From Candidatus Scalindua sp. SCAELEC01 (lineage in GTDB: Bacteria > Planctomycetota > Brocadiia > Brocadiales > Scalinduaceae): 64,000 bases of DNA. The DNA is taken from positions 1 to 64,000 of the forward strand of contig SHMT01000011.1 in NCBI GenBank assembly GCA_004282745.1, written 5' to 3'. Below the pieces are notes generated by a model. That model was not told where the DNA came from, searched no databases, and was given only the letters and a program-made list of their open reading frames with translations. Of the stretch, positions 38,982-48,424 are shown piece after piece (position 1 is the stretch's first letter; each line of letters begins with the position of its first letter). A program made the position numbers and the translations under genes.

Positions 38982-39138
38982 TATCTCGTGTTTGAATGCA
39001 AACTACCCATCTACTACGTTACTGCAACAATTTCGAAATCCTCAAGTACAATTGTACGTTCCGGTTACGAAATTGTTACGCGCCTTGTACCTGGGCGCTT
39101 TTCACCCAAACACAGGGTTTTCGTTCAGACACTATCTA
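38982..39138. mobile_element. MITE family B, copy 3 (145 bp), inserted at the rnhB stop codon
   Basis: The element 38988-39132 begins GTGTTTGAATGCAAAC and ends CGTTCAGACAC. It is flanked by TATCTC (38982-38987) and TATCTA (39133-39138). The last base of the rnhB stop codon TAG (39134-39132) is the first base of the element. The other flank holds the asd SD. Confidence 0.88.
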
Positions 39139-40097
39139 ATTCGGATTAAGATATCATCAGCGATACCTAACCGGTGTCTTGTTTGATCAATCTGAGACAA
39201 AAATCTTTTTGCATCTTCCGGGTAACCGGCTGTTGGCTTTAAGTCATTTATCTGCTCTTGCCAATAGGTATTAAATAATCTAATAAATAATTCACGAATG
39301 TATTTACTGAACATTGATGCCAGAGCTGTAGGGAAATACTTTGAATCTGCACCCTCAATGAACGATACATTCATCCTTTCCTTCTCATTACCGATTGTAT
39401 AGGTTGATATACACCTCCCTTCTGATAGTGTATTTACTTCGTGATGTTTAAAACCGGTTGTGAGTAATTGATGGTAGTAATTTCTCCCACCCAGCTTATC
39501 TATGAGGACCTTGGTGTCCTTTTCACCGAAATGGTAAATAATCTCTTTCAAATGTTGTAGACTGTTATTGAAGAGGAGTATGGCCTTATTCCGAGTGTAC
39601 TCAATCTGCCGGTTGAATTCACGAACGCACAAAAAAATACTCTTAACATCACGTAAAAATATATTTTGTAGATTTGCCGAATGAGTAATCATCTCTGCAC
39701 ATTGTAAAATTCTTGAAATATTTGAAGCTACCGGTAGTGTAATATCTTTTCCCTTATACCATGGATAGGTATCTAACACATCGCTGTCATGGTTTGACAA
39801 CAATTTTAGCAAATCAGAGAAGCTGGTTACTCTTTCCCTTTTACTCCAAAGGAAGGATAAGACCGTCTCCTCAAGGAGTCTTAATCCGCTCCTTTGTGAA
39901 TAGGTTTTTTTACTATCATTCACTACGATACGATTACGCCTGTTTTGGACCTTATCTGAAATTGCATTTTTTAACAAGGGCCAGAGATTGGTTTCATGAT
40001 CATAGCGGGATGGCAACTCCATTACAACTGAGGTTAAGACCAGCGGCCCAATTTTTGGACCATATCCGGCTTCATCAATACCCGCGATTATGGTCAT
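39132..40097 (-). CDS. rnhB: ribonuclease HII-like protein, long form
   Basis: 321 residues, longer than the usual 200-230. GIDEAGYGPKIGPLVLT holds the first Asp-Glu pair, VLIDKLGGR a further Asp, and FIEGADSKYFPTALASMFSKYIREL the last Asp plus the following helix. TAGYPEDAKRFL is the C-terminal family box. An insert of about 100 residues (about 70-170) sits in the first half. It cleaves RNA in RNA-DNA hybrids at the ribonucleotide; the long form may have a different substrate preference. Its stop codon is made at the junction with a MITE. Confidence 0.8.
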   Translation of the reverse strand: MTIIAGIDEAGYGPKIGPLVLTSVVMELPSRYDHETNLWPLLKNAISDKVQNRRNRIVVNDSKKTYSQRSGLRLLEETVLSFLWSKRERVTSFSDLLKLLSNHDSDVLDTYPWYKGKDITLPVASNISRILQCAEMITHSANLQNIFLRDVKSIFLCVREFNRQIEYTRNKAILLFNNSLQHLKEIIYHFGEKDTKVLIDKLGGRNYYHQLLTTGFKHHEVNTLSEGRCISTYTIGNEKERMNVSFIEGADSKYFPTALASMFSKYIRELFIRLFNTYWQEQINDLKPTAGYPEDAKRFLSQIDQTRHRLGIADDILIRIR

Positions 40098-41044: not shown

Positions 41045-42388
41045 ATGAAGGTTATAAAATTACAAGAGGGCGGCAGTGGGTATGAGATTGAACAGATCAA
41101 ACAGGGAATGAGTCTGTTTGCCGATATCCTTTCGGTAAAGATGGCGGAAAAGACGAAAGAGGTCTTTGGTAAAGCTCTTACACCGATGGAAAGTGTTAAA
41201 CGCATTATTTCAGATGTTCGGGAAAAAGGTGATAGTGCCATAGCACATTATTCAGACAAGTTTGAGGGGGTATCCTTATCTGCGAACGATTTTCGTGTCA
41301 AAGAGGAAGAGATTGAGGAAGCTTACGAGAAGGTATCCGTCGACTTTCTCCGCGCTATAAGAAATGCCCGGGAAAACATTAAGGTGTTTCAAGAACACAT
41401 TCGAGTGCGTGAACCTGAACCGTTCTCTTCAAAGGGAACCAGAATAACCGTTACCTACGATCCCATTGAAAATGTTGGTCTTTATATACCGGGAGGTTCT
41501 GCATCATATCCATCTACCGTACTCATGAATGCGATACCTGCTAAGGTGGCTGGGGTGAAAAATATTTCTGTTGTATCTCCGCCCGGTAGAGATGGCAGTC
41601 TGTCCCCGGAAAGGCTGGTTGCCTGCAGGGAGTCAGAGGTAGACGAGATCTATAAGATTGGGGGTGTTCACTCAATTGCTGCGCTTGCGTTTGGTACAGA
41701 GACAGTAGGCAAGGTTGATAAGATCGTTGGTCCGGGCAATATCTATGTTACTCTTGCCAAAAAAGAGGTATTTGGACATGTTGGAATAGATATATTAGCG
41801 GGTCCGAGCGAAGTTTTGATCATCGCCGATGATTCTGCGAATGTTGCCTTCATTGCTGCCGATCTGCTTTCGCAGGCCGAACATGCCCCTGGCATATCGA
41901 TATTGGTTACCGATTCTGAGAGGTTTGCAAGCGATGTTTTGCGTGAAACAGGGCGCCAGTTGTTGAATATGCCTGGTAGCGACTCTATTCAAGAGTCACT
42001 CGACAAATTTGGCTTCATTATTATCACAAAAGATCTAGAGGAGGCGATTGCTGTTTCGAATACCCTGGCCCCGGAGCATCTACAGATAGTTACCCAAAAT
42101 GATGAACGTGTTTTGTTGGGGATAAAGCATGCGGGGGCAATTTTTCTTGGCCCCTATTCACCCGTTGCGGTAGGGGATTATATTGCCGGCCCGTCTCATG
42201 TCTTACCAACGGGCAGCACTGCTCGATTTTTTTCAGGGTTGTCTGTCAACGACTTTCTCAAAAGGACCAGTATTATGACAAATTCAAGACACGATCTGGA
42301 AATGCTGGCCGATGATATTATCACTATTTCAGAAGCTGAAGGGCTCGTGGCACACGCGAAATCGGTACGCGTAAGAGTGGAAAAATGA
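41045..42388 (+). CDS. hisD: histidinol dehydrogenase
   Basis: 447 residues catalysing the last two NAD-dependent oxidations from histidinol to histidine. GLYIPGGSASYPSTVLMNA, KIVGPGNIYVTLAK and IDILAGPSEVLIIAD are the dehydrogenase signatures. QAEHAPG holds the zinc-binding Gln and His. The distal GDYIAGPSHVLPT and C-terminal region are complete, and length is slightly above the usual 430. AAGGGAT precedes the ATG. It is the first of a loose group of his genes on this strand, and its stop is 9 bases before a divergent MITE-B copy. Confidence 0.96.
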   Translation: MKVIKLQEGGSGYEIEQIKQGMSLFADILSVKMAEKTKEVFGKALTPMESVKRIISDVREKGDSAIAHYSDKFEGVSLSANDFRVKEEEIEEAYEKVSVDFLRAIRNARENIKVFQEHIRVREPEPFSSKGTRITVTYDPIENVGLYIPGGSASYPSTVLMNAIPAKVAGVKNISVVSPPGRDGSLSPERLVACRESEVDEIYKIGGVHSIAALAFGTETVGKVDKIVGPGNIYVTLAKKEVFGHVGIDILAGPSEVLIIADDSANVAFIAADLLSQAEHAPGISILVTDSERFASDVLRETGRQLLNMPGSDSIQESLDKFGFIIITKDLEEAIAVSNTLAPEHLQIVTQNDERVLLGIKHAGAIFLGPYSPVAVGDYIAGPSHVLPTGSTARFFSGLSVNDFLKRTSIMTNSRHDLEMLADDIITISEAEGLVAHAKSVRVRVEK

Positions 42389-42626: not shown

Positions 42627-43697
42627 ATGGAAATTTCTATGCAATCAAGTTACTTTAGGAAGAACATTGAGAAAATGGTCGGCTATGTCCCTGGTGAACA
42701 GCCCCAGGATGGTGAATATATTAAGCTCAATACAAATGAGAATCCCTATCCACCGTCACCAAAGGTCCTGACTGCATTGAAGGAGGCCGTTAATGAAAAA
42801 TTACGCCTCTATCCTGATCCAAGTGCGACAGCGGTTAAGGAGAAGGTGGCCGAGATTCTTGGAACAAGGCCTGAACGCGTTATGGTGGGGAATGGTTCTG
42901 ATGAGCTATTAACCATTATCATCCGTTGTTTTGTCGGGAAGGGGGATAAGGTTGTTTATCCCTACCCAACCTATCTTCTCTATAAGATCCTCTCAGATAT
43001 TCAAGATGGTACGGTTTGCACCGTGGACTTTCATGAAGACTACTCTCTACCAGAAGAAATTGTCGATAAAGGGGGCTCTATTATCTTTCTCTGTAATCCG
43101 AATTCTCCTTCCGGGACTATGACGTCCGTGGATGAGGTTTCAAATATTGCGGCCAAGACAGAGAGTGTCATTGTCGTAGATGAAGCTTATGTTGATTTTG
43201 CCAATGATAACTGCTTAAGATTGGTTGATGAACACCCCAATCTGATTATCCTGCGTACCCTATCCAAGTCATATTCGCTGGCGGGAATGCGTTTGGGATT
43301 TGCTATTGCACAGGAAGGTCTGATCAGCGGGATGATGAAGGTCAAAGATTCGTATAATATAGATAGGCTGAGTATCGCAGCGGCTGTTGCGGCATTAGGT
43401 GATCAGGAAACGTTTAGAGAAAACGTTGCCAAAATAAGAGGGACGAGAGAACGTCTGATGGATGCACTTAAAAAGTTGGGATTTTCTGTATACCGGTCTC
43501 AGACCAATTTTGTGATGATAAAGTGTGCGAACAACTTTGCTGCCAAGGATATTTATGAGAGATTGAAAGAACAGAAGATCCTGATCCGCTACATCGAGGA
43601 ACCAGGCCTAGAAGATTGTCTTAGAATTACGGTCGGGACAGAGGGGGAAATAGATGCACTGCTTGAGAAGATGGGACAGATAAAGCACTCTTCGTAG
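42627..43697 (+). CDS. hisC: histidinol-phosphate aminotransferase
   Basis: 356-residue PLP enzyme converting imidazole acetol phosphate to histidinol phosphate. KLNTNENPYPPSP is the substrate-binding start, VGNGSDELL and CNPNSPSG (PLP Asn) follow, and DEAYVDFA leads to TLSKSYSLAGMRLGF with the Schiff-base lysine. RITVGTEGE carries the carboxylate-binding Arg. The ATG at 42627 is used; a second ATG four codons in is possible, and the SD is weak. It is separated from hisD by a MITE. Confidence 0.96.
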   Translation: MEISMQSSYFRKNIEKMVGYVPGEQPQDGEYIKLNTNENPYPPSPKVLTALKEAVNEKLRLYPDPSATAVKEKVAEILGTRPERVMVGNGSDELLTIIIRCFVGKGDKVVYPYPTYLLYKILSDIQDGTVCTVDFHEDYSLPEEIVDKGGSIIFLCNPNSPSGTMTSVDEVSNIAAKTESVIVVDEAYVDFANDNCLRLVDEHPNLIILRTLSKSYSLAGMRLGFAIAQEGLISGMMKVKDSYNIDRLSIAAAVAALGDQETFRENVAKIRGTRERLMDALKKLGFSVYRSQTNFVMIKCANNFAAKDIYERLKEQKILIRYIEEPGLEDCLRITVGTEGEIDALLEKMGQIKHSS

Positions 43698-44195: not shown

Positions 44196-44222
44196 ATGGG
44201 CGCTAACCCAAGTTTTGAGAAA

Positions 44223-45419
44223 ATGGAAAATAGTGACGATTTAATAGTAATTACGGTTAACGGTCCGGATGCCCCGGGTATTGTTTCGTCAATTATATCA
44301 ATACTTTCAGTAAATGCGGTAAAAATAATTGATATTGAACAGATTGTTATTCGTAAATTGATATTATTGTCTATGATGCTGGACTTAAGAGAGAGTAAGG
44401 GCGGTCAAATATCATTATTAAAAGATTTATTGCTTGAGGCAAGGAGACTGAATGTAGAGCTTGACTTTAAAATAGTGTCAGTTAATGAACACTTACAATA
44501 TGATAAAAATTTTATGTATGCCGTTACCTGCTTAGGAGAGCAAATAACCGCAGATGTACTTGCTCAAATTTCTCATGCAATATATTCTGAAAACGTTAAT
44601 ATTGAAAGAATTACACAACTCGGTCAGGGAGAGTTAAGCTGTATTGAGATGATTGTGAAAACGGACAAAACCATAAACGTTCCTGACATGACCAGGAAGT
44701 TGCTTTCCATAAGCTCTGATTTTGGCGTTGATATTGCTGTTCAAAAAGAGAATATATTTAGGAGATCAAAAAGGCTTGTTGTGATGGATATGGATAGTAC
44801 GCTTATACAGGTTGAAGTTATAGATGAACTGGCAAAAGTCGCTGGTAACGCCGAAGAGGTGAGAGGGATAACCCGTAAGGCAATGAACGGCGAGTTGAGC
44901 TTTAATGAGTCGTTAAACAAACGAGTGGAATTTCTCAGGGGTCTGGATGAAAATATCCTTGATGAAATTTATCATAATATTCCATTCACGCCTGGTGCAA
45001 AAAAACTGGTAAAAATATTAAAAAAACTGGGCTATAAAACTGCTGTAATAAGTGGCGGGTTTACCTTCTTTACCGATCGGTTGAAAAATGAGCTTGGCCT
45101 GGACTATGCCTTTGCCAATAAACTGGAAATAAAAAACGGGAAGTTAACCGGCAAGGTGATTGGAGACATAATCAACGGTGAATTTAAGGCAAAACTTCTT
45201 GAAGAGATAGCGAATAAGGAAAATATCAGTCTGGATCAAGTCGTGGCCATAGGCGACGGAGCAAATGATTTACTCATGCTTGACAAGGCGGGTTTAGGAA
45301 TAGCTTTCAACGCCCACAAGACGGTGAGAGAAAAAGCCGATTATAACATATCACAAAAAAATCTGGATTCTATCATCTACCTTCTGGGTATCAGCGAAAA
45401 AGAGAAAAACACAATTTAA
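44223..45419 (+). CDS. serB: phosphoserine phosphatase with N-terminal ACT domains
   Basis: 398 residues from the ATG at 44223 (an alternative at 44196 would add nine residues). Two ACT domains (about 1-175; LIVITVNGPDAPGIVSSI) may sense serine. The HAD phosphatase part has DMDSTLIQVEVIDELA (nucleophile Asp), ISGGFTFF and AIGDGANDLLML, plus the RKAMNGELSFNESLNKRV substrate cap. It makes serine from phosphoserine. It lies inside the his gene group without tight spacing, flanked by a MITE upstream. Confidence 0.94.
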   Translation: MENSDDLIVITVNGPDAPGIVSSIISILSVNAVKIIDIEQIVIRKLILLSMMLDLRESKGGQISLLKDLLLEARRLNVELDFKIVSVNEHLQYDKNFMYAVTCLGEQITADVLAQISHAIYSENVNIERITQLGQGELSCIEMIVKTDKTINVPDMTRKLLSISSDFGVDIAVQKENIFRRSKRLVVMDMDSTLIQVEVIDELAKVAGNAEEVRGITRKAMNGELSFNESLNKRVEFLRGLDENILDEIYHNIPFTPGAKKLVKILKKLGYKTAVISGGFTFFTDRLKNELGLDYAFANKLEIKNGKLTGKVIGDIINGEFKAKLLEEIANKENISLDQVVAIGDGANDLLMLDKAGLGIAFNAHKTVREKADYNISQKNLDSIIYLLGISEKEKNTI

Positions 45420-45646: not shown

Positions 45647-46231
45647 ATGAGAACCGCAAATGTAAAGAGAAAGACACAGGAGACCAGTGTAAGCCTATCG
45701 ATTGATTTGGATGGGAAAGGGAAGCGGTCGATAGCTACCGGCATCGGTTTCTTTGATCACATGCTGGACCTCCTGGCAAAACATGCCCTGTTTGATCTGG
45801 AGATCAAGGCATTGGGAGATATTGAGGTAGATTATCATCATACGGTTGAAGATGTTGGTATCTGTTTAGGCCAGGCAGTAAAGGAGGCTTTGGGGGACAA
45901 AGCTGGGATAACGCGTTTTGCTAATGTCAGCGTTCCAATGCAGGAGGCCCTGGCCAATGTTGCCGTAGACATAAGTGGCCGCTCTGCCCTCGTCTTTCAT
46001 GTGAAATTGAATACTGAAAAGATAGGAGACTTTGATACCGAGTTGATAAAAGAATTTTTAGAGGCGTTTACGGTAAATGCGGGTCTGAATCTTCATGTTG
46101 ACGTTCCGTATGGTGAAAATGCACACCACATATCAGAGGGAATATTCAAAGGTATTGCAAAGGCACTTGACAGGGCCACAAGGATAGACGAGCGATCGGA
46201 CGATATCCCCTCCACAAAGGGGGTACTTTGA
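45647..46231 (+). CDS. hisB: imidazoleglycerol-phosphate dehydratase
   Basis: 194 residues, the monofunctional bacterial/plant form. [26 protein letters not shown] and [12 protein letters not shown] contain the His/Glu ligands of the two Mn sites. The usual VPMDEAL segment reads VPMQEAL, an Asp-to-Gln change. It dehydrates IGP to imidazole acetol phosphate, the substrate of HisC. No SD is visible before the ATG. Confidence 0.95.
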
Positions 46232-46383: not shown

Positions 46384-47601
46384 TTGATACTATATAACAA
46401 ACAGTTTTTGAGACAGAGACATTTGCAACTGATTACGTCTTTCACTTTATGGGTAATTCTCTTGGTTGCCTCTTTCCCTATTGCCTGGTCGGGTGAGCAG
46501 GTTGGCGAGAGTGTTGCGGATCGATCCAGATATTTCGGGGAAAGGGTGGCACCATCGCCCTGGCCGATGCATCGACACGATTTACGCCATACCGGGAGAA
46601 GCCCATACGTAGGCGCTCAGACAAATGCGATAAAATGGACGTTCCAGGCAGGGGCACCCATCTCTTCCTCTCCCGTTATTGGTATGGATGGGACCATCTT
46701 CTTTGGATCGCACGATAAGCACCTCTATGCAATTAACCCTGATGGTTCTCTGAAATGGAAATTTGAGACAGGAGGTGAGGTGGATTCTACTCCTGTAATT
46801 GATGTTGATGGCGTAATCTATTTCGGTTCGTGGGATGAGTATCTGTATGCACTGTTTCCGGATGGTAAACTGAAATGGAAATACAAATCAGACGGAGGCA
46901 TTATCTCATCCCCTGCGATAGGGGATGATGGGACCCTTTACTTTGGATGTTGGGACGACAAGATACATGCGGTTGATTCGAAAGGGAAAAACAAGTGGGT
47001 GTACAAGACGGCTGATCACATATGGTCTTCCCCTGCTATAGGAGATGATGGAATGGTCTATTGCGGGTCTGAAGATTACTATCTGTTTGCCCTTAGGCCT
47101 GATGGCGAGGCTGTCTGGTCATTTGGCACACGCTACCTGCTTGAATCTTCCCCTTCTATAGGAGATGATGGGACTATCTATTTTGGTTCTGAAGATGCTA
47201 ATCTCTTTGCCTTAGATCCAACGGGTAAGCTAAAATGGCAGTTTAAGACGGAATATGATATTGACTCTTCCACTGCCCTGGCCGCTGATGGGACAATTTA
47301 TATTGGATCTGGAGACGGATATTTGTACGCGCTGAATCCAGATGGTAGCATGAAGTGGAGGTTTGAGACAAGATACTCAATAATGTCGTCTCCTGCCGTG
47401 GATGCGAATGGTACTGTGTACGTAGGTTCCCGAGACAAGAAATTCTACGCCATCAATAGCGATGGTACACTGAAGTGGTATATTGAAACAGGTGGAGCCA
47501 TTGAATCATCAGCTTCCATAGATAAGGATGGAACCGTTTATATCGCCTCAACAGATGGCATACTCTACGCAATTGGGGAAAAGTTGGAACTCTTTCCATA
47601 G
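46384..47601 (+). CDS. exported eight-bladed PQQ-like beta-propeller protein
   Basis: 405 residues: a signal peptide (about 1-38, ending AWSG), then eight repeats of about 38-40 residues of the form SSPAIGDDGTIYFGSxDxxLYALxPDGxLKWxF. These are the blades of a PQQ_2-type propeller. The PQQ-dependent dehydrogenase catalytic residues were not identified, so a BamB-like scaffold or structural role is as likely as an enzyme. The start is TTG behind AAGGGAT. It sits between hisB and hisA; the reason is not evident. Confidence 0.8.
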   Translation: MILYNKQFLRQRHLQLITSFTLWVILLVASFPIAWSGEQVGESVADRSRYFGERVAPSPWPMHRHDLRHTGRSPYVGAQTNAIKWTFQAGAPISSSPVIGMDGTIFFGSHDKHLYAINPDGSLKWKFETGGEVDSTPVIDVDGVIYFGSWDEYLYALFPDGKLKWKYKSDGGIISSPAIGDDGTLYFGCWDDKIHAVDSKGKNKWVYKTADHIWSSPAIGDDGMVYCGSEDYYLFALRPDGEAVWSFGTRYLLESSPSIGDDGTIYFGSEDANLFALDPTGKLKWQFKTEYDIDSSTALAADGTIYIGSGDGYLYALNPDGSMKWRFETRYSIMSSPAVDANGTVYVGSRDKKFYAINSDGTLKWYIETGGAIESSASIDKDGTVYIASTDGILYAIGEKLELFP

Positions 47602-47656: not shown

Positions 47657-48424
47657 ATGAGATTTAGGCCATGCATAGACCTGCGTGAAGGGAGAGTTGT
47701 CCAAATAGTTGGCGGCTCTCTCGAGGAGGGGGACTCAAAGAGATTAAAGACCAATTTTGAGACAAATCGTTCTCCTGCAGATTTTGCGCAGATTTACAAG
47801 GAAGATAATTTTCCAGGTGGCCATGTGATATCACTTGGGCCGGGCAACAAGGAGGCCACACTTTCAGCGTTACATGTGTTCCCTGATGGGTTTCATGTTG
47901 GAGGCGGGATAACGCCTCAAAATGCCGTTATATTTCTTGATGCGGGAGCAAGTCACGTAATTGTCACATCATATGTATTCTCCGATGGAAAGGTCGACAT
48001 GGATAAGCTCCGGTTGCTTCAGAGAACCGTTGGTAAAGATCGATTGGTACTGGACCTGAGTTGTCGAAAGAGAGGATCTGACTTTTGGGTTGTAACCGAC
48101 AGATGGCAAAAGTTTACGAATGTGTCTATCAATCGTGAATTACTCAATCAACTTGCACATTATTGCGACGAATTTCTTGTACATGGGGTTGATGTTGAAG
48201 GGAAAATGGAAGGAATTCAATCAGATCTCATTAAGCTTCTTGGAAAATATTCCCCAATTCCGGTGACATACGCGGGTGGCGTTAGAGCCCTCTCAGACCT
48301 TGCCTTGGTAAAAGAGATTGGTCGGGACCGGGTTGACCTTACTATTGGCAGTGCATTGGATATTTTTGGAGGAAGTATTCCATACCGCAGTGTTGTTGAT
48401 TGGTTTGCTCAGATTACGTGTTAA
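47657..48424 (+). CDS. hisA: ProFAR isomerase, eukaryote-type HisA
   Basis: 255 residues. The family is that of fungal HIS6 and plant HISN3 rather than the ordinary bacterial HisA. Diagnostic segments are RPCIDLREGRVVQIVGGSL, GGHVISLGPGN, HVGGGITPQNA, VIVTSYVF, KDRLVLDLSCRKRG, DEFLVHGVDVEGK, VTYAGGVRALSDL and DLTIGSALDIFGG. It isomerises ProFAR to PRFAR, the fourth step of histidine synthesis. Asp in CIDLR and Asp in VLDLS are the likely acid-base pair. A TATAAAAT stretch lies shortly before the ATG, and no SD is seen. Confidence 0.88.
   Translation: MRFRPCIDLREGRVVQIVGGSLEEGDSKRLKTNFETNRSPADFAQIYKEDNFPGGHVISLGPGNKEATLSALHVFPDGFHVGGGITPQNAVIFLDAGASHVIVTSYVFSDGKVDMDKLRLLQRTVGKDRLVLDLSCRKRGSDFWVVTDRWQKFTNVSINRELLNQLAHYCDEFLVHGVDVEGKMEGIQSDLIKLLGKYSPIPVTYAGGVRALSDLALVKEIGRDRVDLTIGSALDIFGGSIPYRSVVDWFAQITC

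Follow-up and report, generated by a model that had tools for sequence, protein, structure and literature searches.

Candidatus Scalindua carries a TIGR02129-type hisA of probable bacterial origin in place of the ordinary gene

We analyzed a stretch of 64,000 nucleotides (the window) from Candidatus Scalindua sp. SCAELEC01, a member of the Planctomycetota, Brocadiales, Scalinduaceae, and found at 47657..48424 on the plus strand a hisA gene of the TIGR02129 (HIS6/HISN3) type, which encodes a predicted ProFAR isomerase of 255 aa starting with ATG. In our reading, to which we assign a probability of roughly 0.88, this gene was acquired from another bacterium, the ordinary hisA was lost by deletion and such a replacement took place at least two times in the family. 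Scalinduaceae would then offer an unusually clear record of gene displacement, with the old gene precisely deleted and a foreign one installed elsewhere in the genome, and this on two occasions in one family. Our literature search found no paper naming TIGR02129 and none describing a displacement of hisA in Scalinduaceae.

The hisA gene and its predicted role

The first-pass annotation had claimed that the protein follows the HIS6/HISN3 motif pattern and not that of the usual bacterial HisA (TIGR00007). All quoted motifs (VVQIVGGSL, SLGPGN, VIVTSYVF, DLSCRK, DVEG and GSALDIFGG) were indeed located in the translated ORF. A profile search against NCBIfam gave 339.7 bits for TIGR02129 (hisA_euk; E 1.2e-101, model positions 2–253 of 255), well over the cut-off of 229.3 bits, versus 70.6 bits for TIGR00007, which lies below the cut-off of 228.95 bits; the protein was not placed in the ordinary HisA family. 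At the level of Pfam it belongs to PF00977, which is common to ordinary HisA as well. Among PDB chains, Medicago HISN3 (9fcf) scored best with 307.6 bits, followed by yeast HIS6 (2agk) with 189.9 bits; no further chain exceeded 37 bits.

The predicted isomerase would be a TIM barrel responsible for the fourth step of histidine biosynthesis. The aminoaldose ring of ProFAR would be opened and rearranged to PRFAR by means of two candidate catalytic aspartates, Asp8 (in CIDL) and Asp133 (in DLSC), and PRFAR would then be handed to a separate HisF/HisH pair. In our alignment (A1) Asp133 is invariant and Asp8 is nearly so, the sole exception being the PDB chain of Medicago HISN3 with Asn at the equivalent position, presumably an engineered mutant.

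We also searched the whole assembly (4.59 Mb, 104 contigs, 98.57% complete) for an ordinary hisA and obtained no TIGR00007 match over 228.95 bits, leaving the TIGR02129 gene as the only hisA. Two weaker matches of 118.6 and 109.6 bits read as a normal HisF (contig C88) and a WbuZ/HisF2-like protein (contig C95). The gene of the latter adjoins a HisH-like gene (C95:12582-13894), and the two resemble a surface-sugar amidation pair. The true hisH is located on contig C32. A HisHF fusion was considered but not observed, HisF and HisH being encoded on separate contigs. Besides hisA, the pathway is represented by hisD, hisC and hisB in the window and by hisF and hisH elsewhere in the genome.

Within the window, hisD (histidinol dehydrogenase, 41045..42388, TIGR00069, 510 bits), hisC (histidinol-phosphate aminotransferase, 42627..43697, TIGR01141, 361.8 bits) and hisB (imidazoleglycerol-phosphate dehydratase, 45647..46231, NF002109, 290.7 bits) lie upstream of hisA on the same plus strand. 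They do not form an uninterrupted group: a serB gene with ACT domains (44196..45419, plus strand, TIGR00338, 281.6 bits) separates hisC from hisB, and a PQQ/BamB-like beta-propeller gene (46384..47601, plus strand), conserved beside hisB in the family, separates hisB from hisA and ends 55 bp before the hisA start. The order hisD-hisC-hisB-PQQ is kept in all relatives checked, without hisA at this place. The vicinity of hisA to these genes is peculiar to the window genome, and five relatives carry their TIGR02129 gene elsewhere, standing alone. The position of serB is also restricted to the window genome, as it is not found between hisC and hisB in the relatives (L202–L209). Since the gene is 89% identical to the serB of genome G015 (L208) at the DNA level (92% at the protein level), versus 70–76% DNA identity for neighboring genes, serB probably moved recently between Scalinduaceae. 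Further upstream, the minus strand encodes at 39132-40097 a family-conserved protein of 321 aa that resembles RNase HII over only about 23 residues at its N-terminus (34–36 bits). The window also contains a Rieske/cytochrome b and multihaem cluster, as expected of an anammox bacterium.

That the gene codes for the working enzyme had originally been concluded from its place beside hisD, hisC and hisB. The role itself is very probable. More convincing than adjacency are the facts that the gene is the only hisA of the genome and replaces a lost one, that dN/dS of the Scalinduaceae TIGR02129 copies lies at 0.05–0.11, indicating purifying selection, and that a TIGR02129 gene occupies the hisA slot in Cohnella: in two Cohnella loci (L088, L099) and in a third locus (L105) it is flanked by hisH and hisF within a hisD-hisB-hisH-hisA-hisF string. 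The protein could conceivably be a paralogue with another substrate, either TrpF-like or an unrelated isomerase, with histidine being obtained in another way. Dual-function HisA/TrpF relatives do exist among ordinary HisA enzymes, PriA being the established case. However, the remaining his genes (hisD, hisC, hisB, hisF and hisH) are present, the genome lacks a second HisA and the solved close relatives carry the name ProFAR isomerase, which makes a different substrate highly improbable.

Displacement of the ordinary hisA in Scalinduaceae

We determined the type of hisA in 17 genomes of the family (G000–G016). Only TIGR02129 was found in six and only TIGR00007 in eight of them; three had neither, and both types over cut-off were found in none of the 17. 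In carriers of the ordinary gene, hisA is part of the string recJ-pilD-lipoprotein-hisH-hisA-fusA2. Carriers of the TIGR02129 gene (L195–L200) show recJ-pilD-lipoprotein-hisH-fusA2, from which hisA is missing, and the same hisA-less hisH-fusA2 string is seen in G013 (L201), where neither hisA type was found. The junction retains the hisH end together with the fusA2 ribosome-binding region, roughly 40–100 bp lying between the two genes. In genome G012 the fusA2 following hisH looks degraded (L198, 6876-7600): all that can be recognized is a remnant of its start (MGQYGMEDNK). The ancestral TIGR00007 hisA was lost from between hisH and fusA2 by a clean deletion, while we infer the order of gain and loss.

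On a family tree built from ten genes, two changes of hisA type are needed, one within a subclade of g2 and one in the window genome, later than its divergence from G001, a member of the same genus. Nor does the new gene always have the same place: the window genome carries it downstream of hisD-hisC-hisB-PQQ, the other carriers close to an unknown ORF and a PPIase-like gene. On the family tree the replacement would have occurred at least twice, with the new gene at two different places. The HisA path between the window genome and g2 amounts to 0.27, versus about 0.66 on the family tree (g2-internal ratio about 0.7); as different models were used, this is a rough comparison. The HisA path falls short of what the family tree would predict, which favors a later transfer.

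A single ancestral acquisition, with both types co-existing for a long time until differential loss and relocation set in, would also account for the fact that all TIGR02129 copies of Scalinduaceae form one clade (100/93), and the divergence of HisA (78–80%) falls in the range of hisB (79–82%). We nevertheless regard this course of events as less likely: no surveyed family genome carries both types over cut-off, the new gene occupies different places in the two lineages and HisA has diverged less than the family tree would lead one to expect. For the repeated replacement which we prefer, Scalinduaceae would have obtained the TIGR02129 gene from another bacterium, a direction that we infer, as the tree with its very distant outgroup does not polarize it.

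Bacterial relatives and the origin of plant and fungal HisA

The first-pass annotation had regarded the gene as eukaryote-type and unusual for bacteria. Scanning of genome contigs instead yielded at least 579 confirmed bacterial relatives, the best 80 of which include Desulfobacterota, Verrucomicrobiota, Lachnospiraceae, Cohnella, Fibrobacterota, Gammaproteobacteria, Latescibacterota and others; among the matches listed, the top-ranking relative comes from a Candidatus Scalindua MAG. TIGR02129 matches over cut-off were present in 81 of 195 sampled genomes of the Pelagicoccus phylum (Verrucomicrobiota), 20 of 247 of the Desulfobacter phylum, 23 of 392 of Planctomycetota, 5 of 299 of the Roseburia phylum and 3 of 398 of the Endozoicomonas phylum, centre genome included. 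Since ordinary HisA over cut-off was found in none of 24 other genomes with the TIGR02129 type, the type is normally the sole HisA in bacteria too. In 75 of 82 fetched TIGR02129 loci none of the other tested his genes occurs within the fetched flanks (up to 5 kb). The label "eukaryote-type" or hisA_euk is misleading, as the family is largely bacterial, and the annotation is corrected here to that of a widespread bacterial enzyme repeatedly standing in for ordinary HisA. A shorter HisA-like group (L037, of about 241 aa, L038 and L039) that carries HSIEVEG and sits on a long branch reaches 151–167 bits against TIGR02129, below the cut-off, and is possibly a deep sister of this type. Two contigs from a viral collection (L120, L121) carry a TIGR02129 hisA and group together near sequences of the Pelagicoccus phylum; they may be host DNA or provirus.

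The annotation had further raised the possibility of a gene transfer between the Scalindua lineage and eukaryotes, in either direction. Our main HisA tree comprised 114 rows with only two eukaryotic sequences, the PDB chains of Medicago HISN3 and yeast HIS6, and in it the window gene grouped with bacteria: first with Scalinduaceae (100/93), then with a Nitrospina MAG and Desulfamplus (95/91), all Scalindua sequences lying inside a 16-row bacterial clade (97/98). In this tree with its two eukaryotes, Scalindua HisA is nested among bacterial, not eukaryotic, sequences. One of the relatives (L041) is a MAG contig, which could be misbinned. Acquisition from a plant-like or algal eukaryote might be suggested by the higher identity to Medicago HISN3 (55%) than to yeast HIS6 (43%) and by the motifs HGVDVEG and TSYVF, which Medicago HISN3 also has. 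Yet bacterial sequences are closer (about 80% identity within the family, 73% for the Nitrospina MAG, 64–65% for Desulfobacter) and Medicago stays outside the 16-row clade, so that we consider a eukaryotic source extremely improbable. With its nearest relatives bacterial, Scalindua hisA is, as judged from sequence comparison, a bacterial xenologue that points to gene exchange between bacteria and not to a direct swap with plants or fungi.

The bacterial breadth of TIGR02129 makes the origin of plant and fungal HisA testable. In the 114-row tree Medicago HISN3 lies just outside the 16-row clade within a 20-row clade (97/81), and yeast HIS6 is part of a separate 24-row clade (100/99) together with sequences from Planctomycetota (f16, f35) and the Pelagicoccus phylum. 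Supported branches (100/99; 95/98) separate the two, which share 47% identity, each having about 60% identity to its own nearest bacterium. Forcing them together cost 39 log units (AU p 0.055) with the 114 rows and two eukaryotes, and 52 log units (AU p 0.0035) with 55 hand-picked rows, a set in which the position of Medicago lacks good support. As a lead from two eukaryotic sequences, this suggests separate bacterial sources for plant HISN3 and yeast HIS6. We tentatively propose that TIGR02129 is an old bacterial family and that plants and fungi may have taken their HisA separately from two of its bacterial subclades, the plant gene being close to the Scalindua/Desulfobacter/Latescibacterota subclade.

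Comparison with known systems

The closest solved protein is HISN3 of Medicago truncatula (PDB 9fcf/9fcg), which is 55% identical over nearly the full length and has the same motifs as Scalindua HisA; the latter is three residues shorter in the stretch from L22 to N33 and lacks a two-residue insert after SLG. Yeast HIS6 (PDB 2agk) is likewise of the TIGR02129 type with 43% identity, but belongs to another subclade of the type and shows HAADVEG instead of HGVDVEG. The ordinary HisA (TIGR00007) of other Brocadiales carries out the same step and shares PF00977, but in the family its gene is flanked by hisH and fusA2, and Scalindua HisA scores only 70.6 bits against its profile. The TIGR02129 genes of Desulfobacterota, Verrucomicrobiota, Lachnospiraceae and Cohnella are of the same type as the Scalindua gene and the sole hisA where tested; most of the other bacterial loci lie away from the tested his genes, whereas the Scalindua copy is found near hisB.
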